Positions 231 to 19,504 of a stretch of DNA of 20,246 bases are shown piece after piece (positions within the stretch are counted from its first letter, which is position 1; every line of letters begins with the position of its first letter). Under the pieces are notes generated by a model that did no database searches, was not told where the DNA came from, and saw only the letters and a program-made list of their open reading frames with translations. Both the position numbers and the translations under genes were made by a program. Origin of the DNA: a virus; the IMG/VR virus record IMGVR_UViG_3300028548_003932, positions 1 to 20,246 of that record; one strand, 5' to 3'.

Positions 231-475
231 ATATTGGTGATAAGATTTCGTATACCAACATATACGATGAGCCCGCAAATGGTGTAATTGCATCTATCGA
301 GTCTGATATGGATTCGTATGATAACGTAAAATTAGAAGATGGTGTTGCATACTACTACTCTAAAAAGATGGGGCGATATACTCCTGTCAAAGAGAAGAAT
401 GCTGACTCTATGTTTCTATCTATAACAGGAGCTCGTGGTGAAACTAACTACATAACGATGAATGATGTTATATGA
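227..475 (+). CDS. Small hypothetical protein (82 aa)
   Basis: I do not recognise this gene. It encodes 82 residues beginning MNIGDKISYTNIYDEPANGV, with an early Gly/Asp turn and several predicted short beta strands (VIASIES, VKLEDGVAYYYS, MFLSITG), which suggests a small beta-barrel-like fold; there is no signal peptide, membrane segment or cysteine. It is translationally coupled to the recombinase end through ATGA and overlaps the following oxygenase gene by 14 bases. Its coding status is supported by the tight overlaps on both sides rather than by homology. Confidence 0.6.
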   Translation: MNIGDKISYTNIYDEPANGVIASIESDMDSYDNVKLEDGVAYYYSKKMGRYTPVKEKNADSMFLSITGARGETNYITMNDVI

Positions 476-1091
476 TTTTATTGAAATATATGACAATGAA
501 AAAATAGATGATTGTGCGAAGATAGTCAACTATTTTGATTCTGTCTATGATGAATCTTCAAGTAAGAGTTCAGGCCTGGCGTTCTTTAATAGAGGACGCC
601 AAAAGGTCTGTGCAACGAAGACTTTTAACTTTGGTGATGATGTTCTTATTAATGGCCAAGTGTATGGGTTTATTCAAGATGCATTGAAACAGTATACAAA
701 GAAATATGATTATCTGAACACACTCAACAAGTCTAGTTACTGGCGTCTATGTCCTCTGTATAATATTCAACGCTACAATGAGGGAGAAGGATTCTTCTCG
801 TTGCATAATGAGCAGTCTGGTTCGTATCCTTATCGACTCCTTGCATGGATGGTGTATCTTAATGATGCAACCTCTGGAACGGAGTTTCCCTATCAGGATA
901 TAGTTGTAACTCCCTCAGCGGGACGTACAGTCATATGGCCTGCTGGTTGGACACATCCACATAAAGGTGTAACTCCAAACGTAGGAGTCAAGTATATTGC
1001 TACAGGTTGGTTTTATACTCTTCCAAAAGGGAAACCTAAATTTGATGGCCATCATCCTGACGAAACAAATATACAGGAGATAGTAATATGA
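462..1091 (+). CDS. 2-oxoglutarate/Fe(II) oxygenase, prolyl-4-hydroxylase-like (type A, copy 1)
   Basis: This 209-residue protein matches the small phage/bacterial prolyl-4-hydroxylase-like 2OG-Fe(II) dioxygenases, which use O2 and 2-oxoglutarate to hydroxylate a substrate. The jelly-roll core spans roughly residues 95-187. It has the strand YNIQRYNEGEGFFSLHNE with H115 and E117 as first metal ligands (an HxE rather than the usual HxD), then 'LLAWMVYLND', 'GTEFPY', 'GRTVIWPAGWTHPHKG' with H167 as the probable distal ligand, and K177 in 'GVKYIATGW' as the probable 2OG carboxylate anchor. A second ATG at 465 (MLYDF) is an equally good start. The start lies inside the previous gene and has no clear Shine-Dalgarno, consistent with coupling. 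It is the first of four linked oxygenase-like genes. The substrate is unknown. Confidence 0.8.
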   Translation: MMLYDFIEIYDNEKIDDCAKIVNYFDSVYDESSSKSSGLAFFNRGRQKVCATKTFNFGDDVLINGQVYGFIQDALKQYTKKYDYLNTLNKSSYWRLCPLYNIQRYNEGEGFFSLHNEQSGSYPYRLLAWMVYLNDATSGTEFPYQDIVVTPSAGRTVIWPAGWTHPHKGVTPNVGVKYIATGWFYTLPKGKPKFDGHHPDETNIQEIVI

Positions 1092-1711
1092 GTGCATTAT
1101 CTAGACTAGTTGGCAATCCAAATCCATGGCCAAGTTTCACTGACAAATTTCCAGTGAAGGTTAAAGATTTAAGTGTTTCTAATGATGGACCTAGCTTGCC
1201 ACTTACTGCTGGATTTTTGCAACATATAACCAATGACATTAAAGAAGCGGGCGATCATTTGCAAGGTAGGACTGCGGCAAAGTGTTTGATGACTCGTTGG
1301 GATATGCACAATGAGTATACAACATTTCGGGTTATCGGTTCAGCTGCATCTGAAGTAGCACATCGATGCCCTGTAGCTACAAAGACAGATACAGAAGGTA
1401 ATGCATTATCAGTTCCATTATTCATTAAGGATAGTTGGGGATTAGTTTATGTTAAGGGTAATGAAACTAAAGAACATAATCATTGGCCCTCTTTATGGTC
1501 ATATACATTCTGTGTTAATGCGTGTGAGAATTGTGCGCCTCTGGTGTTTCCAACATGTGTAAATGGATATGAAGTAAAACCTAAAACAGCTCAACTTATT
1601 GTTTTTCCTGCGTGGATAAAACATGAGGTTCCAGTTCATAAATGCAATCATGAGCGTATTATGGTAGCAGGAAATCTTAATGTAGGACAGGACAAAAAAG
1701 ATGCTTCGTAA
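1088..1711 (+). CDS. Putative 2OG-Fe(II) oxygenase / cupin-like protein (type B, copy 1)
   Basis: This 207-residue protein resembles the second phage 2OG-Fe(II) family (TIGR02466/PF13759-like). That family's landmarks are an HxH strand, a 'FPSWLxHxV' strand and a final RISxxFN strand. Here they are 'HNHWPSLWSYTF' (H130, H132), 'LIVFPAWIKHEV' (H179) and 'HERIMVAGNL' (R190, N196). Two cysteines sit between them (VNACENCAPLVF), shared with its paralogue downstream. The N-terminal ~110 residues lack a motif I can place. The start overlaps the previous stop (ATGA) and is preceded by AGGAGA at 1075-1080, seven bases away. The family match is from pattern memory; catalytic activity is inferred, and a non-enzymatic cupin is possible. 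Confidence 0.7.
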   Translation: MSALSRLVGNPNPWPSFTDKFPVKVKDLSVSNDGPSLPLTAGFLQHITNDIKEAGDHLQGRTAAKCLMTRWDMHNEYTTFRVIGSAASEVAHRCPVATKTDTEGNALSVPLFIKDSWGLVYVKGNETKEHNHWPSLWSYTFCVNACENCAPLVFPTCVNGYEVKPKTAQLIVFPAWIKHEVPVHKCNHERIMVAGNLNVGQDKKDAS

Positions 1712-2270
1712 TTTTATTAGGGGTTTTGATAACGCATTATCTAATGATGAATGTGACAAACTGATTGAATGGTTTGAACAGGATGATCATGATGGTAAAA
1801 TCATAGAAGCAAATCGTATATCTCGTAAAGACAAACAAATTTGGATGGATGATAAAGAACCGCTCTACTCAATATTACAGAAATCAAAAATTGATATGTT
1901 GTATGAATATACAAATGAGTTTTCTGTTGTATACCGTGGTGCAAAGAATTCGCTTGTATCACCAGAGAGTAAAATACAAAAAACAAATCCAATGGGTGGC
2001 GGCTTTCATAATTTTCATGCAGAGAACTCTCACTATGCAGATGCAACAAGAGCTTTGGTCTGGACGATATATCTTAACGATGTTCCAGATGGAGAAGGAG
2101 AGACAGAGTTTCTCTATGAGAAAATAAGAGTGCAACCCCGTAAGGGTATGGGTTGTATCTTTCCTGCTGCATGGATGTATCAACATAGAGGCAATCCTAT
2201 TCATACTCATTCCAAATATATTGCAACAGGTTGGTATTGGTATCCACAAGAGAAACCTATTGTATCATGA
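1701..2270 (+). CDS. 2-oxoglutarate/Fe(II) oxygenase, prolyl-4-hydroxylase-like (type A, copy 2)
   Basis: This is a 189-residue paralogue of the oxygenase at 462-1091. The core is intact: 'QKTNPMGGGFHNFHAEN' supplies H106 and E108, followed by 'LVWTIYLNDVPDGEGETEF', 'GCIFPAAWMYQHRGNP' with H162 as the probable distal ligand, and K172 in 'SKYIATGWYW' as the probable 2OG-binding lysine. The two type A proteins share the HxE choice and the 'KYIATGW' strand but differ greatly in the N-terminal half, so the duplication is old or the copies were acquired separately. The start overlaps the previous gene by 11 bases and the stop overlaps the next start (ATGA). The family hydroxylates protein or small-molecule substrates; the target here is unknown. 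Confidence 0.8.
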   Translation: MLRNFIRGFDNALSNDECDKLIEWFEQDDHDGKIIEANRISRKDKQIWMDDKEPLYSILQKSKIDMLYEYTNEFSVVYRGAKNSLVSPESKIQKTNPMGGGFHNFHAENSHYADATRALVWTIYLNDVPDGEGETEFLYEKIRVQPRKGMGCIFPAAWMYQHRGNPIHTHSKYIATGWYWYPQEKPIVS

Positions 2271-2974
2271 GTTTATTAAAGTCACTTGCTGCCAGTTTAG
2301 GTAATGAAAATGATATGGCCGAAAAGAAACTTCGGCAACTAAAAACGAACCCAGCTTCTATTCCTTTCAATGTTAACTTTCCTGTAATACAAAAAAGAGT
2401 TCCTGTTGAATATATAACTGACAGTTTAGTTGCAACCTGTCAAAACTTTCATGATGTGCAGAATAAAGAAACCAATGTGAGAGCTAGTATGACGGATTGG
2501 TATATGCATGAACATGATATTGATTTTGCAAACCTGGCAGAGTTTGCAGTGAGTGTTGGAAATGATAACTCTCCCAGCAAAGTTTTTTTAATGCCCTATG
2601 ATTGCTGGTCTGCTAGTTATTCTAAAGGTGACTATACTATTCCTCATGAACATTGGCCTTCTATATGGAGTTGGGTTTATAATTTAGAATGTTGTGACCA
2701 GTGTTCACCTTTGACATTTGACGATGCATCACAGAGTATTTCTCCTTTAAGGGGAACAATGATTATGTTTCCAGGCTGGGTTAAACATTCTGTAGCAAAA
2801 CAACAATGTGATCATAAAAGAATTATCATTGCAGGAAACCTTGGTCTAAATCCATATTGGGTGGAGAGAAATCTTACTCTTAAAAAATCTAGTACATCTA
2901 GTCGATATAAAGATATTGTTAATCATGATTTTGACTACTATCACACTTCTATGAAAAACTGTAGGACTAAATAA
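2267..2974 (+). CDS. Putative 2OG-Fe(II) oxygenase / cupin-like protein (type B, copy 2)
   Basis: This 235-residue protein is a paralogue of the gene at 1088-1711. The matching landmarks are 'PHEHWPSIWSWVYNL' (H127, H129), the cysteine cluster 'ECCDQCSPLTF', 'TMIMFPGWVKHSV' (H174) and 'DHKRIIIAGNLGLN' (R185, N191). I start it at the ATG at 2267 because this gives an ATGA overlap with the preceding stop and begins a plausible N-terminus (MSLLKSLAASLG); the frame is open further upstream to 2231 but that part lies inside the previous gene. Compared with copy 1 it carries an extra basic/Tyr-rich C-terminal tail of about 40 residues. The catalytic role is inferred from ligand spacing only. Confidence 0.7.
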   Translation: MSLLKSLAASLGNENDMAEKKLRQLKTNPASIPFNVNFPVIQKRVPVEYITDSLVATCQNFHDVQNKETNVRASMTDWYMHEHDIDFANLAEFAVSVGNDNSPSKVFLMPYDCWSASYSKGDYTIPHEHWPSIWSWVYNLECCDQCSPLTFDDASQSISPLRGTMIMFPGWVKHSVAKQQCDHKRIIIAGNLGLNPYWVERNLTLKKSSTSSRYKDIVNHDFDYYHTSMKNCRTK

Positions 2975-2982
2975 ACTTTACT

Positions 2983-3162
2983 ATGAAAAAATACAGAATT
3001 ATTCTTAAAAATACAGTAGCTGATTATATGGATGAATCTCAGGCAAAAGAAATGTTGCAGATGTTCATTGATATTGAACCTAATAAAAATTATGATATAG
3101 AACCCTACGATTTTACTACATCAGAATCTAAACGCTACGGCCGCAATCCAGACCTACATTAA
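2983..3162 (+). CDS. Small conserved-type protein (59 aa) ending GRNPDLH
   Basis: A short gene runs from an ATG at 2983 to TAA at 3160-3162 and encodes 59 residues: a basic beta-like N-terminus (MKKYRIILKNTVADYM), an acidic helix (DESQAKEMLQMFIDIEP) and a C-terminus KRYGRNPDLH. Small proteins ending in a G-R-(N/D)-P-D-L-H pattern are, to my recollection, found beside baseplate genes in marine T4-like phages, which supports coding. It follows the oxygenase cluster after 8 bases and precedes the tandem late promoters, so it is probably the last gene of the upstream unit. Function unknown. Confidence 0.65.
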   Translation: MKKYRIILKNTVADYMDESQAKEMLQMFIDIEPNKNYDIEPYDFTTSESKRYGRNPDLH

Positions 3163-3200: not shown

Positions 3201-4643
3201 ATGGTTGAAAAAAGTTTCTTTATGGGCCAAGATGGTTTTATTTGGTTCGTTGGAGTTGTAGAAGACCGCAATGACCCAGAACGCCTTGGGCGTGTTCGTG
3301 TGCGAGCTTTAGGTTTTCATACAGATGTATTAGAAGACCTACCATCAGATGATTTGCCATGGGCACATGTTATGCATCCTGTCACAGACCCATCGATGCA
3401 GGGAATGGGAAACACACCTTCATTTTTAGTTGAAGGTAGTTGGGTTATAGGATTCTTTAGAGATACGGAAAGACAACAACCTGTAATACTTGGTTCTTTG
3501 CCCGGAACACCAAGGAGGCCTGCTGATCATCGTTATGGTTTTAATGATCCAAGAAGTCCATTTTCTAAACAAATTGAATATACAGGGACTCCATCATATG
3601 GTCCTTATCCTGTTGATGGTGAAGAATATTCTTTGACATCTGGGCATGAATTAGATGAACCAGATACAAATAGATTAGCTCAAGGACAAAGTTCAGAAAC
3701 ACATGATTCTTTAATGAACAGAAGATTGAAACGTCTTAGGGGCGATCCAACAAAACTTGATACAACTGTTGGAGTTGATGATACTGGCACCCATCCAAAT
3801 ACAACACAGTTTGGAACAGGTGTTCCTATTGCAACGCAACCATTTATAAAATCCGTATCAGATGTTGCTGTTGAAGAAACTCGTACATTTTGGGAAGAGC
3901 CGGACCCCAAGTCAACTAAGAAATATGTAAATCCATATTTGTCATCCCAGTATCCTTACAATCATGTGTTTGAATCTGAGTCTGGCCATATAACAGAAAT
4001 TGATGACAGTCCCAATAATGAGAGACTCTTTCGTCAACACATGTCTGGAACCTTTGAAGAGATTCATCCTATAGGAGATAAAGTTGTCAAGGTTATCGGT
4101 GACAACTATGAGATTATTGCTGGAAAATCAAGTGTATCAATTACTGGCGATGTTAATCTTACTGTCGAGGGAAATGTTCGGGAACTCATTAAGGGAAATT
4201 ATCACTTAGAAGTTGAAGGTGACTACACGCAAAAGATTCATAAGAATCTTCGGCGTAAGGTTGGTGCAGGAGTTAGTGGTGGTAATGTTGAAGAAGAAAT
4301 AGTTGGAAATCACTCCTTCAATATTAAACAGAATGTTAAGGGTCGAATTGGGGAGAAGGTCAACGTCACTACAGAAGGTGATGAGGTTAGATTAAATAAT
4401 GGTAATTATGGCCAAATTGTTAAACTTGACATGAACATATTTGCTGGAGTAAAAGCTGGTAACATGAATCTGAATACAGAAGGTAATATGAATATTTCAA
4501 CCACATCAGGTATTGTATCTTTAAAATCTGGTAGCACTCTTAATTTGAAGTCTGCTGGAGTTATGCAGATTCAATCAGAGACAGAGATTGATTTGGATGC
4601 TGCTGATATTGCTGGTAATGCAAAACCAATTAATTTGAACTAA
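3201..4643 (+). CDS. 5: Baseplate hub / cell-puncturing spike, gp5-like, without lysozyme domain
   Basis: The 480-residue protein forms the central spike under the tail tube. Residues ~10-105 look like the gp5 OB-fold (DGFIWFVGVVEDRNDPERLG then RVRVRALGFH, ending 'PVILGSLPGTP'). A linker rich in polar residues follows (~110-255). From ~280 the chain becomes short repeating VxG/xEG/GN segments (e.g. 'SITGDVNLTVEGNVREL', 'GNYHLEVEGDYT', 'NLNTEGNMNIST'), typical of the triple-stranded beta-helix of gp5/VgrG spikes. T4 gp5 is about 575 residues because a lysozyme lies between these parts; no such domain is present, as is usual in marine T4-like phages. AGAGGA upstream gives a good ribosome site. 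The stop overlaps the next ATG (TAATG), and a PAAR tip protein is encoded soon after. Confidence 0.88.
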   Translation: MVEKSFFMGQDGFIWFVGVVEDRNDPERLGRVRVRALGFHTDVLEDLPSDDLPWAHVMHPVTDPSMQGMGNTPSFLVEGSWVIGFFRDTERQQPVILGSLPGTPRRPADHRYGFNDPRSPFSKQIEYTGTPSYGPYPVDGEEYSLTSGHELDEPDTNRLAQGQSSETHDSLMNRRLKRLRGDPTKLDTTVGVDDTGTHPNTTQFGTGVPIATQPFIKSVSDVAVEETRTFWEEPDPKSTKKYVNPYLSSQYPYNHVFESESGHITEIDDSPNNERLFRQHMSGTFEEIHPIGDKVVKVIGDNYEIIAGKSSVSITGDVNLTVEGNVRELIKGNYHLEVEGDYTQKIHKNLRRKVGAGVSGGNVEEEIVGNHSFNIKQNVKGRIGEKVNVTTEGDEVRLNNGNYGQIVKLDMNIFAGVKAGNMNLNTEGNMNISTTSGIVSLKSGSTLNLKSAGVMQIQSETEIDLDAADIAGNAKPINLN

Positions 4644-5123: not shown

Positions 5124-6374
5124 ATGCCTACGATACCAAATTTATGTGGCGCAAGCCTAGAACTTGATGATGCTCTAACAAAATTAGAAGACTTAGAAAG
5201 TTCATTAACTTCTCAAATAGATTCGCCCGCATCAACCGCCGCTGCAGCTGCTGCATCATCTGTAACACAACTGAAATCTTCCTTTGATAGTCTTTCGACT
5301 GATCTTCCAGAAATTCCCCCTCTTAATTTACAAGCAGAAATTACAGGACTTTTACAATTACCTCTCACAACTCTAGGAGAAGTTCTTGCATATACTAACA
5401 AGTTAGCAGAAATTGATACTAATTTCGGTAGTGAACTGACTACTGCTGGAAAAGATTTAACCACATTAGTATCTGATGCCACTACTGCGTTGGCCGGCGG
5501 TGGAGATTTATGCAAAGCTGTTCCCAATTTTGAGAAGGCAGCCGATGGTAGTGGTGAAGCTCTAGAGAAATCTGCAGCAGTATTGCAAGCATCAACTGCT
5601 CCTTTGGCAGAGGAGTTGTCTGTAATCGTTCAAAATCCAAACATTAATGCTTCGCGGGATGCTCTTAAAACAAAATCTGAAAAGTTTGCAACTGTCGCAA
5701 ATACTGAAGGTTTTGAAAATCTTGGTAAATCAGCAGCTGATTTTAATGTTCCAGAGGCATATGAGGAAACAATAAAATCTAGAGAATTTACAGTTACAAA
5801 AAATGGTAAATCAATTAAAACGGAAATTGTTACTGCTAGAGAATCTGTGATAAAAACTACTTCAACAGATATTACCAGCTCATCTGAAAAGACTGTAGTT
5901 AGTGGTGGCGGCGTAACAGTAACACGTTATGAAAGAGCCAATGTTTCTAAAAATGGTCAAACATGTCAACCAGTACTCGTAGAGGAATTAATCAATGCCG
6001 ATGGGCCAGATGCATTTGGAAATGGATTGGATGACCCAGTTGGCGACTCTCTTGAGATAATTCGGTTAAAACACAATATAGCTGAAATTGTTTGGGTCAA
6101 AGGTTGGAGGCCCTTGGCTGGGCCACGGGGGAGGTGGACACGCATCCGTGCCGGCGATAATCCCAACAACCGAGACCTTGGCGGGCCCGGAAGCTTCCGC
6201 TACGATGATTATCAGATTGAAGATGAAAGGTATATTGCTATTACTGCTGACCATAACATATATGCAGGGTATACAGGAAAAGAAAATCGGTTTCTTGGTA
6301 TAGCTTATAGAGTTAAATATAAATATAATGCTACATATAATCCAAATGTTAAAAAGATAGAAGAATTTTTCTAA
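5124..6374 (+). CDS. Probable virion structural protein (416 aa) with GC-rich insert
   Basis: I do not recognise a named family. Residues 1-215 are Ala/Ser/Thr/Leu-rich and probably helical, with possible coiled coil (SSVTQLKSSFDSL, LAYTNKLAEIDTNFG). Residues ~235-300 are a beta-rich Lys/Thr/Ser segment. Residues ~310-416 form a different, aromatic C-terminal part (HNIAEIVWVKGW, GSFRYDDYQIEDERYIAIT, YRVKYKYNATYN). The gene sits between the PAAR and gp25 genes, so a baseplate or tail role is likely. A strong ribosome site (GGAGG at 5112-5116) precedes the ATG. Oddity: codons for residues ~326-359 (about 6101-6200) are 68% G+C by hand count while the flank at 6241-6300 is 37%. The stop forms TAATG with the next gene. 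Confidence 0.7.
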   Translation: MPTIPNLCGASLELDDALTKLEDLESSLTSQIDSPASTAAAAAASSVTQLKSSFDSLSTDLPEIPPLNLQAEITGLLQLPLTTLGEVLAYTNKLAEIDTNFGSELTTAGKDLTTLVSDATTALAGGGDLCKAVPNFEKAADGSGEALEKSAAVLQASTAPLAEELSVIVQNPNINASRDALKTKSEKFATVANTEGFENLGKSAADFNVPEAYEETIKSREFTVTKNGKSIKTEIVTARESVIKTTSTDITSSSEKTVVSGGGVTVTRYERANVSKNGQTCQPVLVEELINADGPDAFGNGLDDPVGDSLEIIRLKHNIAEIVWVKGWRPLAGPRGRWTRIRAGDNPNNRDLGGPGSFRYDDYQIEDERYIAITADHNIYAGYTGKENRFLGIAYRVKYKYNATYNPNVKKIEEFF

Positions 6375-6610
6375 TGATTATAAAAAGGAAAAGTATAGTC
6401 ACCCTAAATATATTATATTGGATGCCAGACTACACTAACATTCTACAGGAGTTTATTTGGCAGACAGATGATATTAATCCAGAATATCCAAGAGTTCATA
6501 AATTTTTGAGTTTTTGGCATGACAATATTGAAGCAGTAATATCAGAAGTTAGAATTGCAGATAGCTACGAAACAGGTTATAGGCCAGTGAAAGGTATATT
6601 TGATGTGTAA
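6374..6610 (+). CDS. Small hypothetical protein (78 aa)
   Basis: The 78-residue protein contains 'LNILYWMPDYTNILQEFIW' followed by 'YPRVHKFLSFWHDNIEAVISEV', an aromatic beta strand plus helices, and no cysteine. Proteins with a 'YWMPDY...LQ.F.W.T....P.YPR..KFL.FW' layout are, as I recall, conserved at this position in marine T4-like phages, though without known function. It is coupled to the upstream structural gene by TAATG and overlaps the next gene by 8 bases. There is no signal peptide. Confidence 0.65.
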   Translation: MIIKRKSIVTLNILYWMPDYTNILQEFIWQTDDINPEYPRVHKFLSFWHDNIEAVISEVRIADSYETGYRPVKGIFDV

Positions 6611-6782
6611 TAAAAATGAATATGTAGAAAAACTTAGAAATAAACAAAAGGCATTTAGGTCAGGTAAGAATGTTATATTGACAATTCCCAACCCAAATAC
6701 CAATGAGACAAATAAAAGATTCATCCGTATTAATGCAAAGGATGTTTGGAAAAATGAAGTATATATGATGAAACAGACGTAA
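6603..6782 (+). CDS. Small basic hypothetical protein (59 aa)
   Basis: The ATG at 6603 starts a 59-residue basic protein (MCNKNEYVEKLRNKQKAF..., '..NVILTIPNPNTNETNKRFIRINAKDVW'). A TTG one codon earlier (6600) is less likely. It overlaps the previous gene by 8 bases. The high Lys/Arg content and a central beta segment could suit nucleic acid or protein binding, but no known motif is visible. It is the last gene before the late promoter at 6791. Confidence 0.6.
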   Translation: MCNKNEYVEKLRNKQKAFRSGKNVILTIPNPNTNETNKRFIRINAKDVWKNEVYMMKQT

Positions 6783-6790
6783 AGACTTCT

Positions 6791-6798
6791 TATAAATA
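6791..6798 (+). promoter_or_regulatory. Late promoter motif inside a perfect inverted repeat
   Basis: An exact TATAAATA lies at 6791-6798, in the 35-base gap before the gp25-like gene. It is embedded in a perfect 7-bp inverted repeat, CTTCTTA (6786-6792), seven-base spacer, TAAGAAG (6800-6806). A good ribosome site AGGAG follows at 6807-6811, six bases before the ATG. Motif and repeat are seen directly; function is inferred. Confidence 0.7.
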
Positions 6799-6817
6799 AT
6801 AAGAAGAGGAGTCCATA

Positions 6818-7258
6818 ATGGCAGCACCAACAGCTTTTACTGATGCACAAGGTCAGAATAATATTGACCGCAATAGTAAACAGTACAAAGATTTAGACCT
6901 TTTCTTTTCAAAGAAGTCTGTGTCTAATGATGTGAATACGGTAACAGATATAACGGCGGTCAAGCGTTCTGTTCGTAATCTGGTGTTAACAAATCACTAT
7001 GAAAAACCCTTTCATCCAGAGATTGGTTCTGGTGTTAGGGATATTTTATTTGAACCTATGACTCCGTTTATTGCTCACATCTTGACTGTGAAGGTACAAG
7101 ATGTTATTGAAAATTTTGAACCAAGGGCTAGAGTAATAGGTGTTTCTGCTAGACCAGATATAGATCGTAATGAATATGAACTAACGATACAATTTTTTGT
7201 TGTAAATGCGCCAACAGAATTGGTTGACTTAACAGTAATGCTAGAGAGATTACGATAA
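6818..7258 (+). CDS. 25: Baseplate wedge protein gp25-like
   Basis: The 146-residue protein belongs to the gp25/GPW family of tail-sheath-nucleating wedge proteins (T4 gp25 is 132 residues). The typical order is present: 'DITAVKRSVRNLVLTNHYEKPFHPEIG' with the 'RNL..T...E.P..P..G' pattern, 'GVRDILFEPMTP', then the family's EPR motif at residues 101-103 (ENFEPRARV), and a final beta hairpin (YELTIQFFVV). gp25 links the wedge to the first sheath ring. The N-terminal ~45 residues are a longer extension than in T4. The stop overlaps the gp6-like start (TAATG), as expected for partners in the same wedge. Confidence 0.9.
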   Translation: MAAPTAFTDAQGQNNIDRNSKQYKDLDLFFSKKSVSNDVNTVTDITAVKRSVRNLVLTNHYEKPFHPEIGSGVRDILFEPMTPFIAHILTVKVQDVIENFEPRARVIGVSARPDIDRNEYELTIQFFVVNAPTELVDLTVMLERLR

Positions 7259-9165
7259 TGGCTGTAAATAATACAAGACTAAATGTAACAGAATTTGACT
7301 TTGATGAGGTTAAAAACAACCTTAAAATATTTCTAAAAGGTCAAACAGATTTTACTGATTATGATTTTGAGGGTTCTGGTATGAGTGCATTGTTAGATGT
7401 GCTTGCATATAACACACATTATCTTGGCTTTAATGCGAACATGCTTGCAAATGAAATGTTTCTTGATAGTTCAAGTATACGTTCAAGTGTGGTATCACAT
7501 GCTAAAACTCTTGGGTATGTACCAATTTCTTCTAGATGTCCAGTTGCAACAGTTGATATTTCATTGAACACAAGTTCACTTGCTAATGCAACAATGCCAG
7601 CTGGAACTATTTTTAATTCTTCTGTAGGTGGAACCTCTTATCAATTTGTAACTGCTACTGATAGAACATCTTCAAATATAGGTGCGACTATTCCATATCG
7701 CAATACTAAAATATATGAAGGAACATTTGTATCAACCAGATACACAGTTGATACTTCAGCTGCTGATCAAAGATTTATTATAACTGATAATAGGGCTGAT
7801 ACATCCACACTAACAGTTAAAGTTCAAACTTCCTCTGGTAATACAACAGTTACTTCATTCACAGAAGCAACTGATATAACTCAACTTACATCAACAAGTA
7901 ATGTATACTTTCTTCAAGAGGTTGAGTCTGCTAAGTTTGAGGTATATTTTGGTGATGGAATAATTGGTACTGCATTATCCGATGACAATATTGTAATTCT
8001 TACTTATGTTGTTGGTAATAGGGAGGCCGCTAATGGAGCATCGATATTTACTAATTCGTCTAGTATTGCAGGAGTTAATGATGTAGCAGTTGCAACTGTA
8101 GATGTTGCAAATGGTGGTGGTAATCCTGAGTCAATTCAATCAATAAAATATAATGCACCACTTGATTATGCTGCTCAAGGAAGATGCGTTACGGCAGAAG
8201 ATTTTAAAGTTTATACCAAACAACTTTATCCAAACGCACAATCTATTCAAGTGTTTGGTGGTGAGAGTGGTTCATTTGATTCAAGTCTTGGAGTAGTTAG
8301 CACACCAGAATACGGTAAAGTTTTTATTGCGATTAAAACAACTACAGGTCTAGCACTTACCGCAACAGAGAAATCTCAATTGGTAGCTGACTTTGGAAGA
8401 TATAAAGTTATGTCTATAACACCTGTCATTGTTGATGCAGAGACAGTATTCCTTATTTTAAATACAACATTCAAATATGATTCTAGTGTAACAACCCTAG
8501 CAGTTGATGAGTTAGAAACTGTTGTCACAAATTCTCTTGCGTCCTACAATGATTCAAACCTTGAACAGTTTGATGGATTGTTTAGATACTCAAAAGTTTT
8601 GGGTATTATTGATTCCTCTGACACTTCAATACTAAGTAATTCAACAAATATTACGATGGCAAAATTCTTTACGCCGATTTTAACTGCATCTACCGCATAC
8701 TATGTTTATTTTAACAATGCACTTTATTATCCACACTCTGGTCATAATGCTGCATCTGGTGGTGTTGTTGCGTCTACTGGTTTTTATATTAGTGGTGATG
8801 CAACTAACTTGAGGTATTTTGATGATGATGGTATAGGTAATTTAAGAACATATTATCTTTCCACTGGAGTTAGAGTTTATGATTCTGCCGCTGCGGGTAC
8901 AGTTGCATATGCAACTGGTACAATATCAATAACTGGAATTCATATAACTTCAGTTGCTAATGTTGATGGCGCTGCATCAGCTTCAATTAGAATAACAGTT
9001 ATCCCTGATTCTAGGGACATAGTTTCTGTTCGTAATCAAACATTAGAAATTGATTTTGTTAATTCAACAATTAAAGGAGAGTCAGATAGTATTGCAATAA
9101 GTAACAGCGGTGCTGGGTCATCTTATACAACTACATCTGCTTACACACCAACGTCGGGTTATTAA
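7258..9165 (+). CDS. 6: Baseplate wedge protein gp6-like (baseplate J-like)
   Basis: The 635-residue protein is near the size of T4 gp6 (660). Its N-terminus (FDFDEVKNNLKIFLKGQTDF, 'GSGMSALLDVLAYNTHYLGFNANMLANEMFLDSS', 'SVVSHAKTLGYVP') is the conserved start of T4-type gp6. The J-like core follows around Y298-NAPLDYAAQGRCVTAEDFKVYTKQLYP. gp6 dimers join neighbouring wedges into the inner baseplate ring. The last ~150 residues are a beta-rich, Ser/Thr/Gly-rich segment ending TSAYTPTSGY, with little charge. The gene is coupled to gp25 upstream and followed after three bases by the large structural gene. Confidence 0.88.
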   Translation: MAVNNTRLNVTEFDFDEVKNNLKIFLKGQTDFTDYDFEGSGMSALLDVLAYNTHYLGFNANMLANEMFLDSSSIRSSVVSHAKTLGYVPISSRCPVATVDISLNTSSLANATMPAGTIFNSSVGGTSYQFVTATDRTSSNIGATIPYRNTKIYEGTFVSTRYTVDTSAADQRFIITDNRADTSTLTVKVQTSSGNTTVTSFTEATDITQLTSTSNVYFLQEVESAKFEVYFGDGIIGTALSDDNIVILTYVVGNREAANGASIFTNSSSIAGVNDVAVATVDVANGGGNPESIQSIKYNAPLDYAAQGRCVTAEDFKVYTKQLYPNAQSIQVFGGESGSFDSSLGVVSTPEYGKVFIAIKTTTGLALTATEKSQLVADFGRYKVMSITPVIVDAETVFLILNTTFKYDSSVTTLAVDELETVVTNSLASYNDSNLEQFDGLFRYSKVLGIIDSSDTSILSNSTNITMAKFFTPILTASTAYYVYFNNALYYPHSGHNAASGGVVASTGFYISGDATNLRYFDDDGIGNLRTYYLSTGVRVYDSAAAGTVAYATGTISITGIHITSVANVDGAASASIRITVIPDSRDIVSVRNQTLEIDFVNSTIKGESDSIAISNSGAGSSYTTTSAYTPTSGY

Positions 9166-9168
9166 AAA

Positions 9169-12100
9169 ATGGCACCTTTTGATAATCCACCTTCTGGAGA
9201 TTTAACTACAAAAATTAGTACCCAAGTTGATGGGCAATTACCTGATTTTATTCAGTCTGATCATCCTGTATTTTCTAAATTTCTTAAACACTATTATGAG
9301 TATCTAGAATCTGGTGAACTTCGTGTTAAGGTAACTATTGATAATCTAATTTTAGAATTAGAAACTGAATCTCATGTACTGGGCCCAGATGGTAATAAGA
9401 TAGTTCTTGAATCAGGAGCTGGAACTGATGGACAGTTTAATGTTGGTGAAACTATAACTGGTGCAACCTCAAAGGCTACTGCTAAAATTTTGGTTGATGA
9501 TTTAGGTAATACTACCCCAAGACTCTTTATAACATCTCAACAAAAATTTATTACTGGTGAAACTATAACTGGTGGAACCTCTAATGCAAGTGCGGTTGTT
9601 ACTCGTTATCGGGCAAACCCCGTACAGAATATTCAACAGTTATTGTCTTATGCTGACACTGATAATACTATCTATGACTTCCTAGATAATTTCCGCGATG
9701 AGTTTATGAATGCTATTCCAAAAACTCTTGCATCTGGAATAAACCAAAGAAACTTAATTAAAAATATTCGTGAACTATATCGTGCTAAAGGAACATCTGA
9801 AGGTCATAAGATTTTCATGCGTATGCTTCTTGGTGAAGACCCAGAGTTATTATATCCAAATCAATATATGATGAGAGCTTCTGCTGGTAACTGGAACAAC
9901 AGAACAATTATGAGAGTTGCGCCTGGGATTAATGTTGTTGCTTCAGAAATTGTTGGTCAAAAAATAACGGGACAAACTTCCCAAGCAACAGCTGTAGTTG
10001 TGAGTGCTTCTGTATTTGCCGAGGCCGCAACTGCTATAATTGAATTTGAATTAAATCCTAATTCTATATCAACACTTGAAACATTTCAGACAGGTGAAGA
10101 AATAAAAGCTGTATCTAGTGTTCAAGATGTTCCTATGACTTTCACTCTAAAGTCTATTGTATCACAGGGATTGGTATCTTCTGGTGGTGCATTATATCCG
10201 AAACAAAATCCAGTTGAATTTGATACCAATTTAAATATTGGTAACGGTTTAGCAACAGCAAAAGTTTCTGATATAAGATATGGTTCTGTTGGTGACATTG
10301 CGATAGATGCTGGTGGAACGCTTTATGAGGTTGGTGATCCTTTAGTATTTACAACCGCAGATTCAAATACCAAGGCTGCTAGTGGATTTGTATCTATTAT
10401 TGATGGTGCTTTAGTTCTTGATGGAACTGGGGCATATGGAAGTGAAGCTGGAGATTTTTTAACTACAGAAGATGGAACAACGCAATCTTTAGTAGGATTT
10501 CAAGTTGAACTTGAAAAGACAACAACTGGTAATGCTGGAGAAAGTCTTCTTCTTAATGGAACAGATGCATCTTCTACAGATGCTGGCCATAATATTGGCA
10601 TGGAAGATTCATTAATTCAAAGAACTAATGACAAATATGGAACAGGCGCAGATAGATTTGCAATAGAATCTGGAACTGATCCTTCTGGTGTAATTACTAG
10701 AGTATTTTTACAAGATGGTGGCGCTGGATATTTAACCATTCCAATAGTTACAGTAACATCACAGTCAGGTACAGGCCAAAATCTTATTGCTACTACAGAT
10801 AGTATTGGTGCAGTTGAAGAAGTAACAATAACTAATCAAGGATTTGACTATAGTAGTGCTCCTAATATGGAGTTTCGTGCAAACTTTACACTGGCAGATG
10901 TTAGTGGAACATTTGAACTTGGTAATACACTCACTACACACACAGGTACAGTTGTATCATTTGATTCATCTTCTCAATTATTATCAACTTCTTTCAAAGA
11001 TGTAATAAGATCAACACTTGAAACAAGCGATAATGAATCAATCGCACTTGAAGATTCTTTAAGAGTTGGTGGTGATGTTAAAAATACAAGAATGGTTTTT
11101 GATAATGTCCTTACTTTTGATGAACATATTTTTACTGAAGATGGAGAACGTCTTGTAACTGAAGCCACTGACACGCTTGATTTTTATGTTGTTCTTGAAA
11201 ATACAACGCCAGGATTTACTGATGGTAGTGCAATTGTTTTAGAATCCAACGATACATTCTTTAATCCCCCTATGCAATTAGAATTATCAGCAAGAGATAA
11301 TACTAATGTTGGTAATGGAATTGCGACAGAAGATGGAACAGACATAATTGTAAGTGAAGAAACATTTTCAATCGGTTCTACTTCATATCAATTGGAAAGA
11401 ATTTTAGGAGAGAATTCTAATAGAACTGTATCAGTTAAATCAGGGATTGGAGATATTCTCACAACAAATGCATCCTTTGATGTTGTAGAAAGTGGAGACT
11501 TCACTGGATTGTTTTTGCTTGATGCAACAGATAGCTCTGGTACAGATAGTGGTTCTCCAATATTAAATGAAGAGTTTGGTAGTAACAATAATATCACTAT
11601 GGATGGAACTGATTCAGATAGTACAGATGCTGGAGCAAAACTTCTGCAAGATGTTGCTGCAGCTGATGGTTCAGTATCAATTGATGGGACGGATTCAAGT
11701 GGAACCAATGTTGATGATAACATTATCAATGAAAGTCCTATAGACTTTTTTGAAGATGCCACTGGTATTAATCCCTTTCCAACTACTATCACAGATTCTT
11801 CGGGGGCCACTGCTAAGATAATTAAGTCAAATATTGCTAAAGGTTCTTCTACTATAGATGTTCTTGTTGAGACTGATAAGAGTTATGGTGTAAACATTCA
11901 GAGTTTGATTGGTGAAGACCTTAACCGTATTCAAGACTCATATTATTATCAACAATTTTCATATGAATTATCTACAGGGTTTTCTTCTTCTAGCTATCTT
12001 GATCAGTTAAAGAAGGCCGTTCACCCAGCTGGATGGGAAGTTTTCAGTAAGGTTAAGATATCATCAGCAATATCTGTTGCAATTAGGAATGCCGGTTCTG

Positions 12101-13972: not shown

Positions 13973-16900
13973 ATGGCATATCAATCACTAGATTTAGGAA
14001 CCTCATCTGATGACGGCACGGGTGATTCTCTACGCCTTGGCGGTGATAAACTCAATGATAATTTTAGTGAGTTATACACCTTACTTGGAACTGGAAGCAC
14101 ACTCACAACTGGAATTAGTGCAACTGGTTCTGTAGTTACGCTAACTTCAGCAGTAGGAACATTTACAACATTAACACCCGTGTCAGCTGACGGTACTGCT
14201 TTAGGAAGTACATTATTAGAGTGGAGTGATCTATATCTTGCAGATAGTTCAGTAATTTATTTTGGTGCAGATCAAGAAATTACTCTTACCCATGTTCATA
14301 ATGTTGGACTTACTTTAACTCATGTCACTGCTGATGATAATCTTCCAATTGTTCTACAGTTAAAATCTGAAGAAGATGCTGTTGTTGCTGATGAAGTTAT
14401 TGCTTCAATTGAATTTGCTGCTGGTGACTCAGATGGTACAGATGGTGCCACCGTTGCTGCTGGTATTCACGCAATTGCAGAAGGTACATTTAGTGCCACT
14501 GCAAACGCAACCAAGTTGGTGTTCACAACTGGTGTATCTGAAACTGCTGCTTCTAGTGCTACTGCGAAGATGACATTAAGTTCTGGTGGCAATCTTGATA
14601 TTTTGGGAGTTGCCACTGCTGCTACATTTGAACCCGATGGTGACACTTCTGCTGGCGATGATGCAGCTATTGGATATACATCTGCTGAAGGTCTTATCCT
14701 AACTGGTCAAGGCAGCACATCTGACATTACATTAAAGAATGATGCTGATGCTACTGTCTTTACAGTTCCTACTGGCAGTGATGACATTTTGTTCCCCGAC
14801 TCGGCAAGAGCTCTATTTGGTGCTGGTTCTGATTTACAACTTTACCATGATGGCTCTAATAGTTATATCGATGATGCTGGCACAGGCGCCCTTAAAATTC
14901 GTGGAAATGCTAGCGTTAATATAGAAAAATATACAGGAGAAGCAATAGCTGAATTTACAGCGGATGGTGCCGTTACACTTCGATATGACGGTGCTATAAA
15001 ATTTGCAACGAGTGCTGCTGGTGTTACTGTAACAGGAGCACTTGATGTAACAACAACTATACAAGGAACCACAATAACGGCCGAGACAGCATTTGTTCCT
15101 GATGCAAGTGATGGTGCTTCTCTTGGTACTACTTCATTAGAATTTAGTGATTTATTTCTCGCCGATGGAGCCGTTATCAACTTTGGTGATGATGACGATG
15201 TTACATTGACCCACGCTAATAATTCGGGTCTAGTTTTGAAGAATGCAGTAACAGCTGATGACAACCCTGTTACCCTTACGTTGCAAACTGGTGAAACAGA
15301 CATGGCTGCAAATGATGTCATGGGTAAGATTTCTTTCCAAGCACCAGGCGAAGGCAGTGGAACAGATGCAGCATTGATTGCTGCTGCAATCCAGGCTCGT
15401 GCAGAAGGTGATTTTAGTTCGAGTTCTAATGCTACCTCAATAGACTTTATGACAGGTGTATCAGAAGCCGCTGCGACTAAGATGAGTTTAAGTTCTGGGG
15501 GTAATCTTGATGTTGTCGGAGATATTACTGGTGCTACTCTAAATGCAGATGGTGATACTGCTGCTGGTGATAATGCTGCAATCGGTTACACTGCTGCTGA
15601 AGGTTTGATTCTCACTGGACAAGGCAGCACCTCAGACATTACACTGAAGAATGATGCTGATGCTACTGTCTTTACGGTTCCTACTGGCACTGATGATATT
15701 CTGTTCCCTGATGGTGCTAAGGCAATGTTTGGTGCGGGTTCTGATTTACAGCTTTATCACGATGGTAGCAATAGCTTTATAACAGATGCTGGAACAGGAA
15801 ATCTTTATCTACAAAGTGCTGTCGGAAATATTTATCTAAGAACTAATGACAGCGAAAACGCTCTTGAAGCTGTACAAAATGGCGCAGTTACACTTTATCA
15901 CAATGCTGTTGCCAAACTTGCAACGAGTGCTGCTGGTCTTTCTCTTGGTTCATCTGGGGTAAATACTACAATTTTAACTAACTCTGCTGGAACTAACAAC
16001 CTTACTTTAGGTTCAGCAGCTGGTGACGCTATTCAATCAGGTGGAAACTATAACGTAATTCTGGGCGATAATGCAGCAACATCTCTTACTACTGGGGATA
16101 CTAACGTAGCAATAGGGTGGAGTGCATTATACACTGCTACTACCTCTAGTAATAATGTTGCGATTGGCGCAGATGCGATGTACGCCAATACTACTGGCGC
16201 AAGTAACGTCGCTATTGGCAAAGGTTCTTTGGATGCCAATACAGAAGGCGACAACAATACTGCATTAGGCCTTGCTTCTTTAAGTGCTAATACCACAGCA
16301 GATAATAACACAGCCCTTGGCCATACTGCTATGAATGTCAACACAACAGGGCATTCCAATGTTGCTGTTGGCCAAGGCGCACTTGATGCCAACACCACTG
16401 GAGCAAGTAACACAGCCCTTGGCATGAGCACTCTTAGTGCCAACACCACTGCGTCTAATAACGTAGCAGTTGGCTATGCTGCTCTGAATGCCGATACCAC
16501 TGGGACAGGTAACACAGCAGTTGGCACAAACGCTCTTAAAACAGTAACAACTTCTCATAATAACACCGCGCTTGGCCATAATGCTGGCTATGACGTAACA
16601 TCAGGTTCGCAGAATGTTTTTGCTGGCACAAACGCTGGTAGATTACAGACTACGGGAGCTAATAGTGTAGCACTCGGCTTTCATGCCCTTTATTCCAACA
16701 CAAGTGGTAACAGTAATATAGCAATAGGACAGGCATCTCTAGATGCTAATACCACTGCGTCTAATAATACAGCAGTCGGCAACAATTCCATGAGTGCCAA
16801 TACCACTGCGTCTGATAATACGGCTCTTGGTGCTAATGCTCTTGATGCCAACACCACTGGAGCAAGTAACGTAGCTATTGGCATGAGCGCTCTTAGTGCC

Positions 16901-19504
16901 AACACCACAGCGGCTAATAATACTGCTGTGGGATATGAAACATTACTTACAACCACTACGGGTGATGGACTTAATGTTGCCATTGGCTATCGGGCCTTGC
17001 GCGCTCTTACTACGGGAAGCCAAAATGTCGCAATTGGCCGAGATGCTGGAGGAGCAATCACTACAGGTACGACTAATGTAGCTATCGGTACTTTGGCTCT
17101 TGATGCCAATACTACTGGCATCACGAATACTGCTGTTGGCGCGTCGGCAGCCTCAGCAATCGTCGATACAAATTTGAATACTGCTTTAGGGTATGCGGCA
17201 CTCCTCACAGAAGCTTCTGGATCAAACAATACAGCTCTTGGCGCTCAGGCTTTAACTACTTCTAACGGAGGAAGTAACAATACAGCGGTGGGCTATTACG
17301 CTTCTGGGGGGCTGACAACAGGAGATAATAATGTTGCTGTAGGTGCTTTGGCATTGGATGCGGCTGTTACGGGAAGCCAAAATACAGCAGTGGGCATGGC
17401 TTCTCTTGGCGCTAACCTTGGTGGAGCAAATAATGTAGCGGTTGGCTATAATGCATTGACTGCAAATACTACTGCTGCTAGTAACGTAGCGGTCGGCGCA
17501 ACTGCTCTTGATGCCAATACAACAGGGGCTAGTAACGTAGCAGTGGGCACTGATGCTCTTAGTTCCAACACCACAGCGGGCACAAATACATCAGTAGGCG
17601 CATCTTCCTCTTTTTCCAATACAACAGGGGCTTCAAACACGGTTGTGGGAAAGTCTGCTTTATATACAAACATAACGGGGAATTCTAATGTAGCGGTTGG
17701 CTATGCTGCTTTAAATCTGGCAACCGGAAGCAATAATACAGCAGTTGGCAGTAGCGCAATGCAAGCCAACACCACAGGCACTAGTAACGCAGCAGTTGGG
17801 CAGGGCGCACTTGATGCCAATACGACGGGTAGTTCAAATACAGCGGTCGGCGTTAATGCTCTTGGTGTCAACACCACAGCCGCTAATAATTCTGCCTTTG
17901 GTGCGACTTCCCTAGACGCTAATACAACGGGCACTCAAAATAATGCGTTTGGTGTCAATGCACTAACTGCCAATACAACGGCCAGTTATAACTCAGCATT
18001 TGGAACCTCGGCTCTTGGTACTAACACTACAGGAGGTAGTAATACAGCAGTTGGTCAGGCGGCTCTAACTGCCAATACCACTGGCGGAAGCAACGTATCG
18101 GTGGGCTATAATGCATTGACTGCAAATACTACTGCTGCTGCTAACACCGCCGTTGGCGCAAATGCTCTTGATGCCAATACTACGGGCGCAGAAAATACTG
18201 CCGTTGGCGACAATGCTTTGGGTGCTAACGTCTCTGGTGCTGCTAACACAGCAGTTGGCAAAGGAGCATTACTCGTAAACACTGCGGGTTCCAATACAGC
18301 ATTTGGCCATACTGCGCTGACCGCTAATGTCGGTGGTACTGCTAACACAGCAGTTGGGCAGGCTTCTCTTGATGCCAACACTACGGGCGCATCCAACACG
18401 GCCGTGGGCCAAGCGGCGCTGGGTGCTAATACCACGGCAGGTAATAACACAGCAGTGGGAGCGTCCTCTCTTGTTTTAAATACCGAAGGAACACAAAATA
18501 ATGCGTTTGGCGCTTCGGCGATGGCGGCCACTACAACGGGCAGTTATAATGCAGCATTTGGAACATCGGCTCTTGGTGCTAATACTACAGGGGCTAATAA
18601 CGTAGCGGTTGGCATTGGTGCTCTTGATGCCAATACTACTGCGGCCAACAACATTGCAATAGGTCGGGATGCCCTAGGCGCTCTAACCACCGCACCCAGT
18701 ACTATTGGCATTGGCACCAACGCTGGTAAGTCTATGGTAACAGGAAGCGGCGAAAATGTTTTGATAGGTAATAATGCGGGAAAAAATTCAACTACTTTCC
18801 AGCAGACCGTTGTTATAGGCGACAATGCCATGGGTAGCGGTGTTGGTACTGGAAATGAAAACGTGGTCATTGGTGATAATGCAGGGTTGGCGCTTACTTC
18901 TGGCCACAGTAATGTTTTAATTGGCTCTGCCAACCATGACAATATGACAACGGGAAACCAATGTGTTAGCATTGGTCAAAACAATGCCCCATCTGCGGTT
19001 AACGTATCTGGCGAGATTTTGATAGGTGTCGCCACCAGTGGTGCGGGAGCTAACACCGCAAGGTTTGGGCTTGCTAGTGGTGCTGCCACGATAAGTTTAG
19101 ACGGTTCCGATACATCTTGGTCTGCGGCTTCAGATTCAAGGTTGAAAAAGGATGTTGCCAATTCTACAGCGGGTCTTTCCTTTATTAACGATTTGCGCGC
19201 AATAACCTTTAAGTGGAATTCAAAGGACGCTATCGCAAATAGCCTACCCCAGTATGATGCTGATAGTTCTGATCCTGTTTTTGGAGAAGGTAAAGCCCAT
19301 CACGGGTTTCTTGCACAGGAAATCAAAACGGTTATTGATGCCCATTCAGAAGTGGTTAATGGACATAATATTTGGAGTCAAGACCCTGATGGAACTCAAC
19401 AAGTAGCGCCCGGTTCTTTAGTCCCAATGTTGGTTAAAGCTGTTCAAGAGTTGTCTGCTCAAAACACGGCTCTTGCAGCTAGGATAACAACATTGGAAGG
19501 ATGA
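13973..19504 (+). CDS. Giant tail fibre / receptor-binding protein with YadA-head-like repeats and S74 chaperone
   Basis: The 1843-residue protein is modular. Residues 1-~60 (AYQSLDLGTSSDDGTGDSLR, 'GGDKLNDNFSELYTLLG') are the N-terminal segment common to marine phage fibre-like proteins and probably attach to the virion. Residues ~68-657 hold two copies of a ~300-residue beta-rich module. Residues 694-1680 are 58 tandem 17-residue repeats of consensus NTAVGxxALxANTTGAS, similar to the YadA-head left-handed beta-roll, so the fibre is probably trimeric. Residues 1720-1843 are a peptidase S74 intramolecular chaperone. No signal peptide or membrane segment is seen. It likely binds a host surface receptor. 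The weak ribosome site is ACAGGG, 14 bases upstream. Base composition in the array is higher in G+C (31-33 of 60 in two lines counted) than in the wedge genes (19 of 60 at 8461-8520). Confidence 0.88.
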   Translation: MAYQSLDLGTSSDDGTGDSLRLGGDKLNDNFSELYTLLGTGSTLTTGISATGSVVTLTSAVGTFTTLTPVSADGTALGSTLLEWSDLYLADSSVIYFGADQEITLTHVHNVGLTLTHVTADDNLPIVLQLKSEEDAVVADEVIASIEFAAGDSDGTDGATVAAGIHAIAEGTFSATANATKLVFTTGVSETAASSATAKMTLSSGGNLDILGVATAATFEPDGDTSAGDDAAIGYTSAEGLILTGQGSTSDITLKNDADATVFTVPTGSDDILFPDSARALFGAGSDLQLYHDGSNSYIDDAGTGALKIRGNASVNIEKYTGEAIAEFTADGAVTLRYDGAIKFATSAAGVTVTGALDVTTTIQGTTITAETAFVPDASDGASLGTTSLEFSDLFLADGAVINFGDDDDVTLTHANNSGLVLKNAVTADDNPVTLTLQTGETDMAANDVMGKISFQAPGEGSGTDAALIAAAIQARAEGDFSSSSNATSIDFMTGVSEAAATKMSLSSGGNLDVVGDITGATLNADGDTAAGDNAAIGYTAAEGLILTGQGSTSDITLKNDADATVFTVPTGTDDILFPDGAKAMFGAGSDLQLYHDGSNSFITDAGTGNLYLQSAVGNIYLRTNDSENALEAVQNGAVTLYHNAVAKLATSAAGLSLGSSGVNTTILTNSAGTNNLTLGSAAGDAIQSGGNYNVILGDNAATSLTTGDTNVAIGWSALYTATTSSNNVAIGADAMYANTTGASNVAIGKGSLDANTEGDNNTALGLASLSANTTADNNTALGHTAMNVNTTGHSNVAVGQGALDANTTGASNTALGMSTLSANTTASNNVAVGYAALNADTTGTGNTAVGTNALKTVTTSHNNTALGHNAGYDVTSGSQNVFAGTNAGRLQTTGANSVALGFHALYSNTSGNSNIAIGQASLDANTTASNNTAVGNNSMSANTTASDNTALGANALDANTTGASNVAIGMSALSANTTAANNTAVGYETLLTTTTGDGLNVAIGYRALRALTTGSQNVAIGRDAGGAITTGTTNVAIGTLALDANTTGITNTAVGASAASAIVDTNLNTALGYAALLTEASGSNNTALGAQALTTSNGGSNNTAVGYYASGGLTTGDNNVAVGALALDAAVTGSQNTAVGMASLGANLGGANNVAVGYNALTANTTAASNVAVGATALDANTTGASNVAVGTDALSSNTTAGTNTSVGASSSFSNTTGASNTVVGKSALYTNITGNSNVAVGYAALNLATGSNNTAVGSSAMQANTTGTSNAAVGQGALDANTTGSSNTAVGVNALGVNTTAANNSAFGATSLDANTTGTQNNAFGVNALTANTTASYNSAFGTSALGTNTTGGSNTAVGQAALTANTTGGSNVSVGYNALTANTTAAANTAVGANALDANTTGAENTAVGDNALGANVSGAANTAVGKGALLVNTAGSNTAFGHTALTANVGGTANTAVGQASLDANTTGASNTAVGQAALGANTTAGNNTAVGASSLVLNTEGTQNNAFGASAMAATTTGSYNAAFGTSALGANTTGANNVAVGIGALDANTTAANNIAIGRDALGALTTAPSTIGIGTNAGKSMVTGSGENVLIGNNAGKNSTTFQQTVVIGDNAMGSGVGTGNENVVIGDNAGLALTSGHSNVLIGSANHDNMTTGNQCVSIGQNNAPSAVNVSGEILIGVATSGAGANTARFGLASGAATISLDGSDTSWSAASDSRLKKDVANSTAGLSFINDLRAITFKWNSKDAIANSLPQYDADSSDPVFGEGKAHHGFLAQEIKTVIDAHSEVVNGHNIWSQDPDGTQQVAPGSLVPMLVKAVQELSAQNTALAARITTLEG
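14176..15945 (+). repeat. Tandem duplication of a ~0.9-kb fibre module
   Basis: The two copies (about 14176-15030 and 15100-15945) are offset by 912-921 bases. Shared landmarks are 'EFSDLFLADGAVINFG' / 'EWSDLYLADSSVIYFG', 'AAIGYT.AEGLILTGQGS', 'DITLKNDADATVFTVPTG', 'GAGSDLQLYHDGSNS' and a closing 'FATSAAGVTV' / 'LATSAAGLSL'. The middle is nearly identical at the DNA level, while the 'YIDDAGTGALKIRG' / 'FITDAGTGNLYLQS' ends diverge. Boundaries are approximate. Confidence 0.85.
16052..19012 (+). repeat. 58-unit array of 51-bp (17-residue) YadA-head-like repeats
   Basis: The frame divides into 58 successive units beginning N-(T/V)-A-(V/I/L)-G, consensus NTAVGxxALxANTTGAS. Fifty-three are exactly 17 residues; units 18, 53 and 55 are 18 and units 33 and 44 are 16. 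This accounts exactly for the 2961 bases. The last six units drift (TIGIG, NVLIG, TVVIG, CVSIG). Such repeats build a trimeric left-handed beta-roll in YadA-type adhesins. It is in-frame coding DNA, not a CRISPR array. Confidence 0.93.
19130..19504 (+). other. Peptidase S74 intramolecular chaperone domain of the fibre
   Basis: The C-terminal 124 residues begin at the SDSRLKKD motif. S1720 is the expected nucleophile, with cleavage just before it, and K1725 five residues on is the expected partner, matching the endosialidase-type S-D-x-R-x-K spacing. The 'HHGFLAQEI' strand-helix and a terminal coiled helix (VKAVQELSAQNTALAARITTLEG) are also typical. These domains trimerise the fibre, then cut themselves off. 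Confidence 0.9.

Follow-up and report, generated by a model that had tools for sequence, protein, structure and literature searches.

Marine phages are already known to carry multiple copies of two families of 2-oxoglutarate (2OG)-Fe(II) oxygenase. The first (PF13640, PHROG 61) occurs in several copies per genome in marine T4-like phages, namely cyanophages and the myophages of OM43 and SAR11, and cyanophages carry up to five such enzymes per phage (PMC3037559). The second (PF13759, TIGR02466, PHROG 81) has relatives in Prochlorococcus and Synechococcus phages and includes the structures 2rg4 and 3bvc. The role of so many 2OG-type oxygenases in marine T4-like phages has gone without explanation since at least 2010. 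Here we describe a 20,246-nucleotide (nt) stretch of viral DNA (IMG/VR record IMGVR_UViG_3300028548_003932, positions 1 to 20,246; the whole stretch is called the window), in which two genes of the first family, A1 and A2, alternate with two of the second, B1 and B2. With about even confidence, we read the four genes as one coupled operon, part of a modular island of oxygenases that lies between uvsX and gp5; the operon would encode hydroxylases that each act singly, most likely on protein. Neither the coupled four-oxygenase operon nor the uvsX-gp5 oxygenase island was described in the open-access literature searched, of which coverage was partial.

Set beside the described systems, A1 and A2 share family and catalytic residues with the PF13640 proteins of cultured phages, but are only 32-42% identical to them and lie within a coupled four-oxygenase operon ahead of gp5. 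The B proteins share the HxH...H...R motif of the second family; however, they fall below the TIGR02466 cut-off, their best cultured-phage relatives match part of the protein at about 25-38% identity, and the two B copies here are locked to A genes. The likeness to PBCV-1 vCPH (5c5t), to Pseudomonas putida PPHD on EF-Tu (4iw3) and to the HIF hydroxylase PHD2 lies in the predicted fold and in the HxD/E...H...K/R site of A, whereas identity is only 12-18% and B has HxH for HxD. Finally, the hypervariable islands of pelagimyophages and cyanomyophages (PMC7029224) are likewise plastic between replication and structural modules, with gene-by-gene turnover, but the oxygenase island consists almost wholly of oxygenases and methyltransferases, its border genes are fixed and its coupled core is conserved. 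Thus, in one widespread virus group, these oxygenases form an ordered, coupled and long-conserved operon and not a scatter of accessory genes. Our analysis was computational, and covered the genes and their families, the conserved catalytic residues, order and coupling, selection, and the stepwise, mosaic evolution of the island.

The four genes are complete open reading frames (ORFs) in the window:
462-1091, + strand: A1, PF13640 prolyl-4-hydroxylase-like oxygenase of 209 amino acids (aa); a second ATG at 465 is an equally possible start
1088-1711, + strand: B1, PF13759 oxygenase with an HxH...H...R...N motif, 207 aa
1701-2270, + strand: A2, second PF13640 oxygenase, of a clade other than that of A1, 189 aa
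2267-2974, + strand: B2, PF13759 oxygenase, 235 aa from an ATG start

The A-B-A-B order of overlapping genes, as first read from the sequence, stands. The program-listed ORF for B2 begins at TTG 2231, but we prefer ATG 2267, which forms an ATGA overlap with the A2 stop, because 28 of 32 contigs keep this ATG with a 4-nt overlap; the overlaps are therefore 4 nt (A1/B1), 11 nt (B1/A2) and 4 nt (A2/B2). The start of A1 in turn overlaps the preceding 82-aa ORF (227-475). The paralogues are strongly diverged, as had been noted, with 32% identity between A1 and A2 and 30% between B1 and B2.

The arrangement recurs widely. From IMG/VR scans, together with hidden Markov model (HMM) surveys of the retrieved loci, 32 contigs, the window included, proved to have the complete A1-B1-A2-B2 order; at 95% DNA identity they fall into 17 groups. 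In these the block sits ahead of gp5, and behind uvsX wherever the contig extends far enough. The A1/B1 overlap is 4 nt in every contig (32/32), the B1/A2 overlap is 11 nt in 25/32, and the A2/B2 overlap is 4 nt in the 28/32 already mentioned. Since the ratio of non-synonymous to synonymous substitution rates (dN/dS) is mostly 0.05-0.23 across A1, B1, A2 and B2, all four genes are kept under purifying selection, and this, with the recurrence of the order, indicates that the block is not due to chance. These observations support a conserved, tightly coupled unit. Its carriers are uncultured marine T4-like viruses, whose nearest cultured kin are the OM43 phage Melnitz and the pelagimyophages: the uvsX of the group is closest to those of Melnitz (81%) and Pelagibacter phage HTVC008M (71%), but gp6 shares only 50% and 47% identity with theirs, respectively, and in neither phage does uvsX adjoin gp5. 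Melnitz has a single A-type gene directly after recA. No cellular donor of B was found when 84,980 species genomes were scanned with the B alignment, a search by exact short patterns which would miss distant kin; it returned two loci, one in a metagenome-assembled genome (MAG) of a Rhodospirillales and the other in one of a Porticoccaceae, and the Porticoccaceae contig also bears a phage-type uvsX.

Profile searches bear out the division into a prolyl-4-hydroxylase-like family and a second one. Both A proteins match PF13640 (A1, 4.7e-10, 40.7 bits; A2, 2.8e-9, 38.2 bits) and both B proteins match PF13759 (B1, 2e-8, 35.0 bits; B2, 1e-9, 39.1 bits), all above the curated cut-off of 27 bits. Against TIGR02466, B1 (45.6 bits) and B2 (35.7 bits) stay under the NCBIfam cut-off of 62.5 bits. 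In PHROG, A falls into phrog_61 and B into phrog_81, both labelled '2OG-Fe(II) oxygenase'. Relatives of A bear the labels 'DNA endonuclease' or 'ferrochelatase' in PHROG and RefSeq; we judged these to be annotation spill-over, because A matches PF13640 and no nuclease family. Oxygenase relatives mislabelled in this way, probably by annotation error, were seen in S-RSM4 (NC_013085) and in PHROGs 2297, 274 and 3531.

The metal sites predicted in the sequence-only reading are intact in all four genes. The HxE...H...K of A is invariant across 44 diverse homologues except for an E/D exchange at one position (in A1, numbered from 465, H114, E116, H166 and K176, with E or D at 116); in A1 the site reads HNE...H...K. 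A1 and A2 therefore have the HxD/E...H metal triad and the distal K/R for 2OG. In B, HxH...H...R...N is invariant across 36 diverse homologues and R185 is retained, but the canonical triad with a carboxylate as third metal ligand is lacking; since HxH stands where other 2OG oxygenases carry HxD/E, a three-histidine site is predicted, which in B2 would consist of H127, H129 and H174. The invariance of these residues rules out pseudo-enzymes, and all four proteins are credible enzymes on the evidence of their sequences. Fe(II)/2OG hydroxylation is the established chemistry of PF13640. Its extension to A, with the attendant use of metal and 2OG, would follow from family membership, and for B homology suggests the same reaction. 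For every one of the enzymes the prediction is a jelly-roll fold that holds one Fe(II) together with 2OG.

The island that contains the block takes many forms. At the uvsX-gp5 locus, we found several states (p82-B2-p59, where p82 and p59 are small proteins of 82 and 59 aa; methyltransferase-B2; methyltransferase-A2-p82-X-B2) and further ones (B1-A2-B2; A'-B1-B2; C-A'-B-B, with or without clpS), and the A1-B1-A2-B2 state itself may have a C gene upstream. Between B1 and A2, contigs L129 and L100 carry a PF05118 hydroxylase of the Asp/Asn-hydroxylase type, and contigs L014 and L015 a CmcI-type methyltransferase (CmcI/RMNT type in L014; PF04989, 1.7e-12); a PF13578-like methyltransferase also occurs in sister islands. 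B2 is the most constant member, adjoins gp5 in most island types and occurs without any A. The island thus appears to have been built up stepwise around B2 as its anchor, with A1, A2 and B1 gained, lost and swapped one by one, and with further oxygenases (of PF05118 and C types) and methyltransferases likewise added, lost and exchanged singly. Besides these enzymes, contig L155 (2865-3200) encodes a ClpS adaptor (PF02617, 2e-29) of the phage's own, which immediately precedes gp5 and neighbours two B-type oxygenases, and ClpS is likewise found in the island of contigs L149-L152, L154 and L158.

AlphaFold2 models built with alignments reached a predicted local distance difference test score (pLDDT) of 83.0 for A1 and 85.7 for B2. 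With Foldseek, the top PDB match of A1 was the viral collagen prolyl hydroxylase vCPH, and those of B2 were 3bvc, vCPH and 2rg4; the matches of both were mostly protein hydroxylases (vCPH, P. putida PPHD with EF-Tu, PHD2 and LH3), and those of B2 also included some small-molecule enzymes (PolD, PasI, MysH). In profile comparisons, the A family matched solved prolyl 4-hydroxylases (Bacillus P4H, 8e-15; PBCV-1 vCPH, 2e-11) and B the uncharacterised marine alphaproteobacterial structures 2rg4 (6e-11) and 3bvc (1e-9). Similarity of fold and profile would make A1 and A2 candidate prolyl 4-hydroxylases. The bacterial PPHD hydroxylates a prolyl residue of EF-Tu (PMC7864055), and the modelled likeness to vCPH, to this EF-Tu hydroxylase and to PHD2 favours a protein substrate. 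On the reading that we prefer, A1-B1-A2-B2 would be a translationally coupled operon of non-haem iron hydroxylases, each hydroxylating its substrate alone and not as part of a fixed A-B heteromer. The likeliest substrates as a class would be side chains (Pro, Asn/Asp or Lys) in a protein of the host or of the virion, and the several enzymes would set several marks, all on a single target or a small number of them. The assignment to protein, and still more to any particular protein, is tentative, and a virion target is conjectural. A collagen-like virion substrate was considered and rejected, since the structural proteins of the window contain no proline-rich repeat and no run of at least 5 Gly-X-Y units.

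That negative result itself weighs against a protein target, as do several other points. The fold search was confined to solved structures, a set in which protein hydroxylases are over-represented. PF13640 folds are also used by small-molecule hydroxylases. The HxH of B in place of HxD/E makes its 2OG chemistry less certain than that of A. Furthermore, in other phages relatives of A and B adjoin carbohydrate or small-molecule genes: epimerase and heptose genes stand beside B in P-SSM2, and a carbamoyltransferase lies two genes from an A2 homologue in contig L134, where that homologue, found without the cassette, stands beside a ferredoxin in a region (6740-11730) which also includes a putative amidinotransferase-like ORF and resembles a cluster for the tailoring of small molecules or glycans. 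The CmcI/RMNT methyltransferase in the island of contig L014 has to be counted here as well.

From these neighbours comes the main rival, in which the enzymes have as their substrate for hydroxylation a sugar, a peptide, lipid A or an intermediate of the nucleotide-sugar type, the island methyltransferases finish the product, and either the host surface is altered (superinfection exclusion) or virion components are decorated. Its strength is that methyltransferases (the CmcI/RMNT-type and PF13578-like enzymes of the sister islands), the carbamoyltransferase of L134 and heptose genes recur in related settings, the B genes of P-SSM2 and Sf-FS3 being near an epimerase, a heptose kinase and a Nol-type carbamoyltransferase. 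Asp/Asn-hydroxylase-type enzymes, moreover, act on free amino acids too. However, no sugar-active gene is present in the window's island or in most of the 17 groups, and the top fold matches are protein hydroxylases, so that we regard tailoring as possible but doubtful. If it were true, the island would represent a new route of surface remodelling; a protein target would mean that a virus encodes a system of several enzymes for hydroxylation in bacteria. As the four enzymes are small and soluble, the substrate question is testable, and the natural single-gene deletions and exchanges of the island offer ready-made comparisons.

A more specific version of the preferred, protein-directed reading is that the four coupled oxygenases, two of them with three-histidine sites, form a module that places several hydroxyl marks on a single protein of the host or virion; upstream copies would bring the enzymes to five or six, and the set would be reshuffled as the host target changes. 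We consider this rather unlikely in so definite a form.

The sequence-only reading had proposed that the block arose by tandem duplication of one A-B cassette, whose A and B work as partners, either as a heteromer or as a two-step pair. The alternating order and the overlaps suggest this, and the A-B linkage is itself recurrent: A and B adjoin elsewhere too, with a second overlapping pair between uvsY and uvsW in contig L237 (1847-3081), where contig L238 has only B. The trees, in contrast, divide the A copies. The A1 clade (support 100/100) and the A2 clade (100/99) are not sisters, A1 grouping with some of the environmental and cyanophage homologues and A2 with others (95/95), and forcing A1 and A2 together cost 40.6 log-likelihood units (delta lnL; approximately unbiased (AU) test, p=0.0028; p=0.034 with an earlier, smaller sequence set). 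Duplication on the A side is thus largely refuted by these comparisons. On the B side, B1 from all island types forms one clade (96/96), apart from B2 and from B-B pairs, but the constraint of B1 and B2 as sisters was not rejected (p=0.26); B1/B2 is an old split, for which local duplication is neither shown nor rejected.

The behaviour of the genes also speaks against an obligate partnership, since A and B are not jointly gained, lost and exchanged. In addition to the B2-only, B1-A2-B2 and A'-B1-B2 islands, two contigs (L085 and L090) match L017 at 95-97% identity over the stretch from B1 into gp5, yet A1 is precisely deleted in both, with its first codons remaining; the two deletions come from different metagenomes, and B1, A2 and B2 are retained. 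Contig L023 lacks B2. DNA identity between the window and contig L005 is 96% in A1, 99% in B1, 88% in A2, 63% in B2 and 98% in gp5, and between L104 and L129 it is 68, 66, 98 and 86% for A1, B1, A2 and B2, respectively. Single genes have thus been exchanged separately, recombination splitting A from B inside each presumed pair. Per-gene distances correlate no better between presumed partners (A1-B1, rho 0.67) than between non-partners (B1-A2, 0.76; A1-A2, 0.75). Because island states, deletions, gene-by-gene exchange and tree tests point the same way, we favour stepwise, modular assembly, and a duplicated obligate pair is very improbable.

Modification or repair of nucleic acids, by AlkB- or TET/JBP-like enzymes, is equally hard to sustain. 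The block adjoins uvsX and the second A-B pair lies between uvsY and uvsW, and DNA repair has been suggested in the literature for cyanophage 2OG oxygenases (as cited in PMC3037559). However, the profiles and folds are those of PF13640, PF13759 and protein hydroxylases, not of the AlkB or TET/JBP families, and the genes at the left border are unlike those at the right, which are structural. Least probable of all is that the oxygenases deplete 2OG or yield succinate and so steer host nitrogen control, as in the model of Sullivan et al. (2010) for cyanophages rich in 2OG oxygenases (PMC3037559), since this would leave two distinct conserved families, their fixed order and their diverged substrate-side sequences unexplained, and was built on the cyanobacterial regulator NtcA, whereas the nearest isolates here infect heterotrophs.

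The surroundings of the block in the window are as follows:
3-230, + strand: 3' end of uvsX (RecA-like recombinase), the left border of the island; weak phrog_97 match, and matched by the full uvsX of a relative used as query
227-475, + strand: conserved small protein of 82 aa between uvsX and the oxygenases; in most island types, with no Pfam family match
2983-3162, + strand: small protein of 59 aa between B2 and gp5, with a C-terminal GRDPDLH/GRNPDLH-type motif; conserved in several island types
3201-4643, + strand: gp5-type baseplate hub protein with an OB domain, the right border of the island; PF06714 (8.5e-21), phrog_430

A full-length uvsX is present in contig L003 (2928-3965) and is 81% identical to the RecA of Melnitz. 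The block had been placed directly ahead of the late structural genes; this holds, except that the 59-aa ORF intervenes between B2 and gp5. Beyond gp5 come the PAAR, gp25 and gp6 baseplate genes and then two giant structural proteins. The two small proteins flag the island borders across diverse viruses, although in the methyltransferase-type island the 82-aa protein shifts to between A2 and B2. In contig L108, an A-type oxygenase and uvsX are preceded by a cytochrome-c-like ORF (591-959), whose product has a CxxCH haem motif and a signal-like N-terminus. A Usg-like protein (PF06233, 2e-21) is encoded at 6374-6610, between a 416-aa protein (5124-6374) and gp25, and also in contig L104 (14739-14951). 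The tail fibre-like protein at 13973-19504 (1843 aa) contains repeats of the N-T-x-V-G type, dozens in number, and has an S74 chaperone domain at its C-terminus.

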